The translations under genes were made by a program, and so were the position numbers. Below are positions 25,109 through 53,684 of a stretch of DNA of 53,685 nt, piece by piece; the stretch's first letter is position 1; each line of letters begins with the position of its first letter. Source of the stretch: Clostridia bacterium (GTDB lineage Bacteria; Bacillota; Clostridia; UMGS1883); assembly GCA_017451505.1 (NCBI GenBank), contig JAFTOF010000025.1, forward strand, positions 1-53,685. Direction: 5' to 3'. The notes under the pieces are model-generated. The model searched no databases and had not been told where the DNA came from. It worked only from the letters and a program-made list of their open reading frames with translations.

Positions 25109-25191
25109 TGGTGCGAGAGACGGGACTTGAACCCGTATGGTCTCCCACACGCACCTTAAACGTGCGCGTCTGCCGATTCCGCCACTCTCGC
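25109..25191 (-). tRNA. tRNA-Leu, anticodon AAG
   Basis: A class II tRNA of 83 nt with encoded CCA. The acceptor arms are GCGAGAG and CTCTCGC with discriminator A73. The D-arm is GCG...CGC, and the T-arm is ACGGG TTCAAGT CCCGT. The anticodon stem is CACGT/GCGTG, with loop TTAAGGT giving anticodon AAG (25155-25157) and G37, as usual for NAG-type leucine tRNAs. Most bacteria use GAG here. A34 would need deamination to inosine, and tadA is present at 52.9 kb. An alternative register gives anticodon TTA with a perfect stem, but that would read a stop codon and is rejected. Confidence 0.85.
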
Positions 25192-28979: not shown

Positions 28980-29268
28980 AAATTAAATAACAAATGCGTT
29001 TGAGCAGGAACAAGTAGGAATGCAGCAAACCTAAAGAGAGTTGCCGGTTGGTGCGAGGCAATGGGGAGGGCATATCTGAATACATCCTGTGAGCAGTGCA
29101 CCGAAAGAAGAATCTACTTCTGCGTAGGCTGCAACGGGCGTTCCCGTCACAGAACAAGAGTGTTGTTTGACACTTGATAAGGCTGTCGTTGTGAAGCGGC
29201 AGTAAACTGAGGTGGTACCGCGGATTATATTCCGTCCTCTGAATTATTAGATTCGAGGACGGATTTTT
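28980..29268 (+). promoter_or_regulatory. T-box riboswitch, predicted tyrosine (UAC) specifier
   Basis: A complete T-box leader. The Stem I base pairs GCAGGA (29004-29009) with TCCTGT (29085-29090). The distal stem is TTGCC/GGCAA around GGTTGGTGCGA with an upstream AGAGAG element. The specifier loop reads GAA TAC ATCC, giving UAC (Tyr) at 29081-29083. The antiterminator T-box is AGGTGGTACCGCGG at about 29210-29223, whose TGGT would pair the ACCA end of a tRNA with A73, as tRNA-Tyr has. The terminator is CCGTCCTC/GAGGACGG (29232-29262) with a T-run. Uncharged tRNA would favour readthrough into the symporter gene. The 520-nt gap 28787-29306 is explained by this and the two promoters. Confidence 0.9.
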
Positions 29269-52898: not shown

Positions 52899-53357
52899 AT
52901 GGAGAACAAATTTATGAAAATCGCACTTTCAGAAGCACAAAAGGCAATTTCCGAGAGCGAAATGCCAGTAGGAGCAGTTGTTGTAAAGGATGGAGAGGTT
53001 ATTGCCACAGGGCACAATATCCGTAACGAAAAGCACGACCCAACGCTTCATGCAGAAATAGTTGCAATTCGTAAAGCTTGTGAGAAGCTTTGTGACTGGC
53101 GGCTTTCAGATTGCGATTTGTATGTTACATTGGAGCCGTGTGTTATGTGCAGCGGTGCTATTATCAATTCCCGTATGCGTAGCGTGTATTTCGGTGCTTA
53201 TGATGCGGAATACGGCGGTGCAGGTGGCAGAATAGATTTGTTTTCAAAATCATATTTCGGCAGTAATACTCAGGTCTACGGTGGAATTATGGAAGATGAA
53301 TGTACATCTATGCTGAAAAACTTCTTTGCTTCACTTCGCGAAGGGAAGAAAAACTAA
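52899..53357 (+). CDS. tadA: tRNA adenosine(34) deaminase TadA
   Basis: A 152-residue zinc deaminase converting A34 to inosine in tRNA anticodons. The catalytic zinc motif is HAEIVAIRKAC near residue 53 and PCVMCSGAI near residue 83. SRMRSVYFGAYDAEYGGAGG follows, as in TadA. The usual bacterial substrate is tRNA-Arg(ACG). Here a tRNA-Leu with anticodon AAG at 25.1 kb offers a second predicted substrate. The tRNA-Ser region begins 8 nt after the stop. Confidence 0.93.
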   Translation: MENKFMKIALSEAQKAISESEMPVGAVVVKDGEVIATGHNIRNEKHDPTLHAEIVAIRKACEKLCDWRLSDCDLYVTLEPCVMCSGAIINSRMRSVYFGAYDAEYGGAGGRIDLFSKSYFGSNTQVYGGIMEDECTSMLKNFFASLREGKKN

Positions 53358-53365
53358 ATATATTT

Positions 53366-53405
53366 GGAGATGTACCCAAGTGGTTGAAGGGTCTGCACTC
53401 GAAAT
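53366..53405 (+). pseudogene. 5' half of a tRNA-Ser (anticodon CGA), broken after the anticodon loop
   Basis: GGAGATG acceptor, TA, a serine-type D-arm (CCCAAGTGGTTGAAGGG), anticodon stem CTGCA, and loop CTCGAAA with anticodon CGA. T39 is the last base that fits; the next bases (CCCC) cannot pair with the CTGCA stem, and no matching 3' acceptor (CATCTCC) follows within the window. The gene is cut at the anticodon stem, consistent with integration of an element at a core inside ACTCGAAATC. Confidence 0.75.
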
Positions 53406-53406
53406 C
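53397..53406 (+). repeat. 10-nt candidate attachment core shared with intact tRNA-Ser
   Basis: ACTCGAAATC occurs here and at 53622-53631 in the complete tRNA-Ser(CGA). It spans the anticodon and is the point where the broken tRNA loses its tRNA character. Confidence 0.5.
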
Positions 53407-53492
53407 CCCTCGGTTACACTGTAACTACACCCCCACAAATGGCTTAACCGTGCGGGTTTAGGCGAGGTTCAAACCTTGTTTTTACACCCTTA

Positions 53493-53531
53493 TCTAGCGG
53501 TTTTTCTAGCCATTTCTAACATTTTTCTAAC
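53493..53531 (+). repeat. Four phased direct repeats TCTA(A/G)C
   Basis: TCTAGC at 53493 and 53505, TCTAAC at 53515 and 53526, spaced 12, 10 and 11 bp, about one helical turn. Helically phased short repeats beside a tRNA break are typical of tyrosine-integrase arm sites. Confidence 0.5.
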
Positions 53532-53589
53532 AAAATTTTATAATTTGCTCAGTTTTTTCTCCGTCAAATCGGAGTTCAAACATACACAC

Positions 53590-53684
53590 GGACAGGTATC
53601 GAAGTGGTCATAACGGGGCTGACTCGAAATCAGTTTGTCGGTATTCAATCCGGCACGTGGGTTCGAATCCCACCCTGTCCGCCA
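53590..53684 (+). tRNA. tRNA-Ser, anticodon CGA
   Basis: A complete class II tRNA with encoded CCA: acceptor GGACAGG with CCTGTCC, discriminator G73, anticodon stem GCTGA/TCAGT, loop CTCGAAA (anticodon CGA), a long variable arm, and T-arm GTGGG/CCCAC with TTCGAAT. It differs from the broken tRNA-Ser upstream in its acceptor and D-arm, so it is not a simple duplicate. It reads UCG codons. It ends one base before the window does. Confidence 0.9.

Follow-up and report, generated by a model that had tools for sequence, protein, structure and literature searches.

The 53,685-nt stretch of DNA analyzed here (hereafter the window; contig JAFTOF010000025.1 of the Clostridia bacterium assembly GCA_017451505.1) very probably ends in the left edge of an integrated element that carries a replacement tRNA-Ser(CGA) and splits the host tRNA-Ser(CGA) gene at its anticodon loop. 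The element is probably mobilizable. An earlier reading of the sequence on its own (the sequence-only reading) had proposed that an element interrupts a tRNA gene at the anticodon and supplies a diverged copy in its place. The junctions, 3′ halves, and integrases of relatives support that proposal.

At the right end of the window, a 40-nt tRNA-Ser 5′ half reading GGAGATGTACCCAAGTGGTTGAAGGGTCTGCA-CTCGAAA-T follows tadA, which precedes tRNA-Ser(CGA) in relatives as well (Table 1). The pair between T39 and A31 holds and pairing is lost from position 40, exactly where the sequence-only reading had placed the break. The intact tRNA-Ser(CGA) of a different scaffold that it had described beyond about 180 bp of non-tRNA DNA begins after 184 bp. 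ARAGORN and Rfam called this gene as the single complete tRNA-Ser(CGA) and called no tRNA at the 5′ half. Matches of 40–44 nt to the 5′ half in other genomes, at 91–95% identity and E about 1e-10, indicate that the half is not a chance resemblance.

Table 1. Features at the right end of the window (coordinates are positions in the window)
Feature	Coordinates	Strand	Remarks
tadA (tRNA adenosine deaminase), host gene	52899..53357	+	ORF; directly upstream of the target tRNA gene
Host tRNA-Ser(CGA) 5′ half, GGAGATG scaffold, 40 nt	53366..53405	+	Remnant of integration; 3′ partner type seen in sister genome G070
attL core CTCGAAAT	53398..53405	+	Anticodon loop and first stem base; common to left and right junctions of the element type
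Element left end L1, 184 bp, non-tRNA	53406..53589	+	25 further loci
Direct repeats TTTCTA[AG]C ×3 (53503, 53513, 53524), 10–11 bp spacing	53503..53531	+	Probable arm-type integrase sites
Promoter-like CTAACA-17-TATAAT	53516..53544	+	Candidate promoter of the replacement tRNA; suggestive only
Complete replacement tRNA-Ser(CGA), GGACAGG scaffold	53590..53684	+	ARAGORN and Rfam; element-borne; potential attB for a later element
Second CTCGAAAT core, anticodon loop of the replacement tRNA	53623..53630	+	Serves as target in nested relatives

When paired with the 3′ half of the complete gene, the window's 5′ half forms 5/7 acceptor and 2/5 anticodon-stem pairs, whereas the complete gene with itself reaches 7/7 and 5/5; the 5′ half is therefore not the partner of that 3′ half. 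This comparison bears on the alternative that integration into the anticodon loop was canonical and that a host 5′ half and an element 3′ half together make up a hybrid complete tRNA. Such a hybrid is the usual route by which tRNA-targeting integrases spare the gene, and it is seen in some relatives with related integrases (G007, G215, G122), but the poor pairing in the window, together with the presence, 184 bp into the element, of a 5′ half belonging to the complete gene, leaves it with almost no credibility here. The statement in the sequence-only reading that integrases usually target tRNA 3′ ends needs correction, as integration at the anticodon loop is a known habit of integrases.

The promoter-like site within the left end has 10/12 matches, a score equaled in 15/300 shuffles. 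Most of the other left ends have promoter-like sites that score no higher than shuffled sequence, and we therefore regard the TATAAT site of the window as no more than suggestive. Elsewhere in the window, which also contains tadA, ARAGORN called a tRNA-Leu with anticodon AAG (25109–25191, minus strand); this anticodon is unusual in bacteria, since A34 would require deamination to inosine. A T-box leader was found at 28990–29242 (Rfam RF00230, 113.7 bits).

The contig (G000:C18) stops one base past the complete tRNA, so sequence to the right is unreadable in the source genome. A distal 3′ half, the right end described below, and another tRNA-Ser(CGA) were all looked for and not found in the window's own bin (1.3 Mb, 78% complete), in which the further serine tRNAs found are GCT and UGA. 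That the contig stops at a tRNA, where several related MAG contigs also break, is what an assembly chimera of two tRNA loci might look like. The same junction, however, is present at 25 loci of other assemblies, from different projects, and the layout also occurs in the single-contig genomes G256 and G376. We thus discount the assembly join that the sequence-only reading had allowed for as next to impossible.

All 25 of these loci, which share the core–spacer junction GAAATCCCCTCGGTTACACTGTAAC, are in Clostridia MAGs, most of them from ruminant or deer gut, and L1 is 81–98% identical across them, one truncated copy excepted. What lies upstream of the junction varies and includes GGAGATG, GGACAGG, or GGAGAAG 5′ halves, decayed halves, and the ends of other elements, while the sequence about 185 bp past it is a tRNA of either scaffold. 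The position of the break is constant across many species: one base of the anticodon loop, then the same foreign sequence. Between the window and genomes G002, G006, and G010, the spacer is 93–98% identical and tadA 72–77%; in G002 the replacement tRNA is 100% identical to that of the window, with tadA at 75%. Identity of the spacer and tRNA is far above that of tadA, and the two have therefore been transferred between species.

These comparisons also address whether the locus arose when tRNA-Ser(CGA) was duplicated in tandem long ago and the first copy then decayed. A duplication would account for two adjacent serine tRNA sequences of which one is broken, but we judge it very improbable given that in many species the break always falls at the same anticodon-loop base, with the same foreign sequence behind it, that the scaffolds of the two tRNAs differ, and that spacer and tRNA are much more alike between species than tadA. 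A decay product fixed in all related genomes, which the sequence-only reading had also considered, is ruled out, since spacer and tRNA move from host to host and lie behind 5′ halves that differ. The uninterrupted GGAGATG-type tRNA-Ser(CGA) that it had suggested looking for exists as complete genes in G050 and G066.

Several L1 and tRNA-Ser loci have other arrangements. At L135 and L125 (G063, G066), L1 immediately follows sequence like the right end of another element (ATGTGCATCGC-TCGAAAT) and lacks a preceding tRNA half, which suggests that L1 inserted at an old attR core. At L009 (G001:C201) and L014 (G017:C231), the D-loop of the tRNA-Ser copy beside tadA contains a repeat-like insertion (AATCGAGCCCGACCGC...ACAAACGGACATAACGGAC), and similar sequence follows a duplicated T-arm and acceptor end at L014 and L015.

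A search for 3′ halves uncovered, in relatives, a conserved right end of about 200 bp, R1, followed by CTCGAAAT and then by an orphan 3′ half. At a threshold of ≥90%, R1 was found in 8/16 genomes with L1 and in 0/16 without it (Fisher p 0.0024), the set of L1 genomes having been picked partly by L1 itself. L1 and R1 each contain three TTTCTA[AG]C direct repeats 10–11 bp apart, compared to a shuffled mean of about 0.02 per end. These triplets match the expectation for arm-type sites and are probably those of one recombinase.

Genome G070 has the window's combination of a GGAGATG half and a GGACAGG complete tRNA. Behind its R1, we found the distal core and the 3′ half ending in CATCTCC that the sequence-only reading had predicted. 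Rejoining the half before L1 with the 3′ half behind R1, which are on separate contigs in G070 as they are in G060, gives 7/7 and 5/5 pairs and an ARAGORN tRNA-Ser(CGA). The rejoined halves of G060 behave likewise, with the scaffolds reversed compared to G070. In neither genome did ARAGORN find a gene when the 5′ half was combined with the element's own 3′ half. No tRNA is rebuilt at either junction: the left one joins the 5′ half to foreign DNA and the right one, in the relatives, foreign DNA to the 3′ half. Some orphan halves are decayed or mismatched (G376, the G025 acceptor, and the G002 5′ half). At two further loci (L046 and L059, G066:C8), R1 is joined via the core straight to L1, as in an attP or in two head-to-tail elements; past the core, L059 is truncated within L1 and L046 at the next tRNA half.

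Five related elements with other ends are each contained whole in one contig: 9.1 kb in G012, 17.3 kb in G025, 6.7 kb in G019, about 18.7 kb in G125, and about 16.5 kb, at a tRNA-Leu(CAA), in the single-contig genome G256. In each, the 5′ half and core are followed by about 140–170 bp, then by a complete tRNA with the same anticodon, an integrase on the opposite strand, the cargo, and finally a core with an orphan 3′ half. The integrase stop codon usually lies about 80–200 bp past the complete tRNA, and the six integrases searched have Phage_integrase and SAM_3 domains. The halves fit their own partners best, with a mean of 11.3/12 pairs compared to 8.3 with the halves of other elements (2/720 permutations). 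G118 and G053 come from different families. They have nearly identical left ends, tRNAs, and integrases (integrase branch lengths 0.011 and 0.014) and unrelated sequences outside the core; a likeness that stops at the core places the complete tRNA inside the element.

Anti-phage defense genes are frequent in such elements. The cargo includes DRT3a and DRT3b reverse transcriptases (G019), a type III restriction-modification system (G025), and an OLD/GajA-like ATPase with PDC-S27 (G012). The G012 element also encodes a replication initiator, MobC/NikA, TnpV, and a helix-turn-helix protein, a gene content that resembles an integrative mobilizable element and not a phage. Among the proteins searched in elements alpha (G012) and gamma (G019), which comprised integrase, replication, MobC/NikA, TnpV, excisionase-like, and defense proteins, none was a phage structural protein.

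The integrase that the sequence-only reading had expected nearby is present directly behind the complete tRNA in related elements, but none was identified for the element type of the window. Among the L1-bearing genomes, we found no integrase consistently tied to L1/R1 ends, and their SAM_3-type integrases include no single close family common to them. IMG/VR contained no match for the spacer and none for the integrase, and integrase matches among phage and plasmid records were all <46% identical. In each of the three L1 elements whose sequence extends far enough (L128 in G002:C15, L127 in G068, and L129 in G071), a YspA/SLOG gene follows the replacement tRNA within a few kb; in two of them it adjoins a 280-aa Xer-like recombinase. 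We dropped this recombinase (G002, G068) as a candidate L1 integrase, since it also occurs in genomes without L1.

We also considered that the core, spacer, and tRNA 5′ half form an independent, MITE-like cassette, moved in trans, and not the left end of a larger element. The unit recurs at near-constant length, at times in tandem with other units (L039, L050, L052, L056), and the failure to link an integrase to L1/R1 would be expected of such a cassette. Yet wherever the spacer leads into a complete tRNA, the 3′ half of that gene fits the gene's 5′ half rather than the one upstream of the spacer, implying that the whole tRNA travels. The displaced 3′ halves, moreover, lie behind R1 and not directly behind the unit, and related types with the same layout hold an integrase and both ends in one contig. 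On balance we consider the cassette unlikely. A version in which spacer and 5′ half complete the 3′ halves of hosts was excluded by the scaffold-matched 3′ halves.

To return to the integrated element, we searched 391 genomes of the class Clostridia with one integrase as query and obtained matches in 34. At 18 of the loci examined, a 5′ half, in some cases partly decayed, precedes a complete tRNA with the same anticodon; the targets are Ser(CGA) (11), Ser(UGA) (2), Ser(GGA) (1), and Leu(CAA) (4). A few others appear canonical or no longer have the half (G007, G215, G122, G304, G198). The integrase tree sorts by target anticodon with 3 changes, the minimum possible. Near-identical integrases occur in G095 (L171), with a broken tRNA-Leu 5′ half and left end, and in G304 (L172), where a complete tRNA-Leu(CAA) has unrelated sequence upstream, which possibly reflects a switch between tRNA-carrying and canonical states.

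Tandem 5′ halves (L050, L052, L056) and orphan 3′ halves immediately before an integrase (G035, G329, G132) indicate that elements sit in a tRNA brought by an earlier element. In G035, right-hand genes of a G012-type element (the closest four at 69–88% identity) run up to a core, behind which the 3′ half and then the integrase belong to a G019-type element. Two contigs of G062 with a 141-bp overlap read half, L1, half, another left end, complete tRNA, and integrase.

We propose that a tyrosine recombinase would recombine an attP, made up of right end, CTCGAAAT, and left end, with the host's tRNA-Ser(CGA) gene behind tadA, at the anticodon loop. The host gene would be split into a 5′ half at the left junction and a 3′ half at the far junction, neither of which would rebuild a tRNA, and the element-borne tRNA-Ser(CGA) of the other scaffold, within the left end, would take over from the destroyed gene and present a fresh copy of the target to the next element. 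Of this scheme, comparison between genomes shows the junctions, the displaced 3′ half, spacer and tRNA as parts of the element, the integrases of related elements, and the nesting. The carried copy is presumably transcribed and would decode UCG; which recombinase acts on the L1 end type, and that the far end is present in the source strain, we infer.

The sequence-only reading had also supposed that the replacement rescues serine decoding of UCG. A replacement is indeed carried, but rescue may not be strictly needed where tRNA-Ser(UGA) is present. tRNA-Ser(UGA) usually reads UCG too, so for CGA the rescue may concern fitness; in the two Ser(UGA) cases, the carried tRNA should be vital. A broader reading, which we hold tentatively and somewhat short of an even chance, is that tRNA-Ser(CGA) and a few other Ser and Leu genes of gut Clostridia are repeatedly seized by defense-carrying elements, with each copy the next target and the host locked in as in addiction. 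As the displaced halves decayed, excision would restore no tRNA and the host would come to depend on the element.

The principle is already known as tRNA-dependent lysogeny, so far mainly from actinobacterial phages: it was demonstrated experimentally for temperate actinobacteriophages including Fionnbharth, LeBron, and Gaia, in which losing the phage tRNA abolishes lysogeny (Guerrero-Bustamante & Hatfull 2024, PMC10865867). The Clostridia elements share with it an attB in a tRNA gene with a short core (CTCGAAAT), the absence of a rebuilt tRNA, a carried tRNA of the same isotype and, in the related complete elements, an element-encoded tyrosine integrase. Unlike those phages, the Clostridia elements examined whole carry replication, mobilization, and defense genes; their targets are Ser(CGA/UGA/GGA) and Leu(CAA), and the tRNA is fixed about 140–185 bp inside attL. 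Integration of a second plasmid into the carried tRNA was speculation in that study, whereas the Clostridia arrays represent natural nesting into a replacement tRNA. Its authors asked how far the system spreads beyond actinobacteriophages and mentioned Lj965 of Lactobacillus johnsonii, a single Firmicutes prophage said to leave its tRNA unrebuilt and to encode a cognate tRNA, which our elements resemble in description.

Canonical tRNA islands (Islander, PMC4383910) similarly have a tyrosine integrase, a tRNA target, and a displaced fragment at the far end, but they carry the missing part of the target and restore the gene, whereas here nothing is restored. In Caldiarchaeum, a 5′ fragment 1.8 kb upstream of a complete Thr-tRNA(GGU) of the same anticodon was likewise ascribed to a mobile element (PMC3293823); that case differs in being archaeal and in involving an intron-containing tRNA, and its authors interpreted it as a way for introns and split tRNAs to arise. 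Compared to the open-licence literature, what is new here is mobilizable, defense-carrying Clostridia elements with natural nesting.

These results answer the 2024 question at the level of sequence: the strategy recurs across Clostridia, on mobilizable elements that are not recognizable phages, and at no fewer than four isoacceptors (≥4). Integration that carries a tRNA feeds itself, since the next element can land in the carried tRNA. An element has here a simple means of making its own loss difficult, and a host tRNA gene can be replaced through horizontal transfer. A complete tRNA closely preceded by a broken 5′ half of the same isoacceptor is also a landmark for finding such elements and their defense cargo in fragmented metagenomes.
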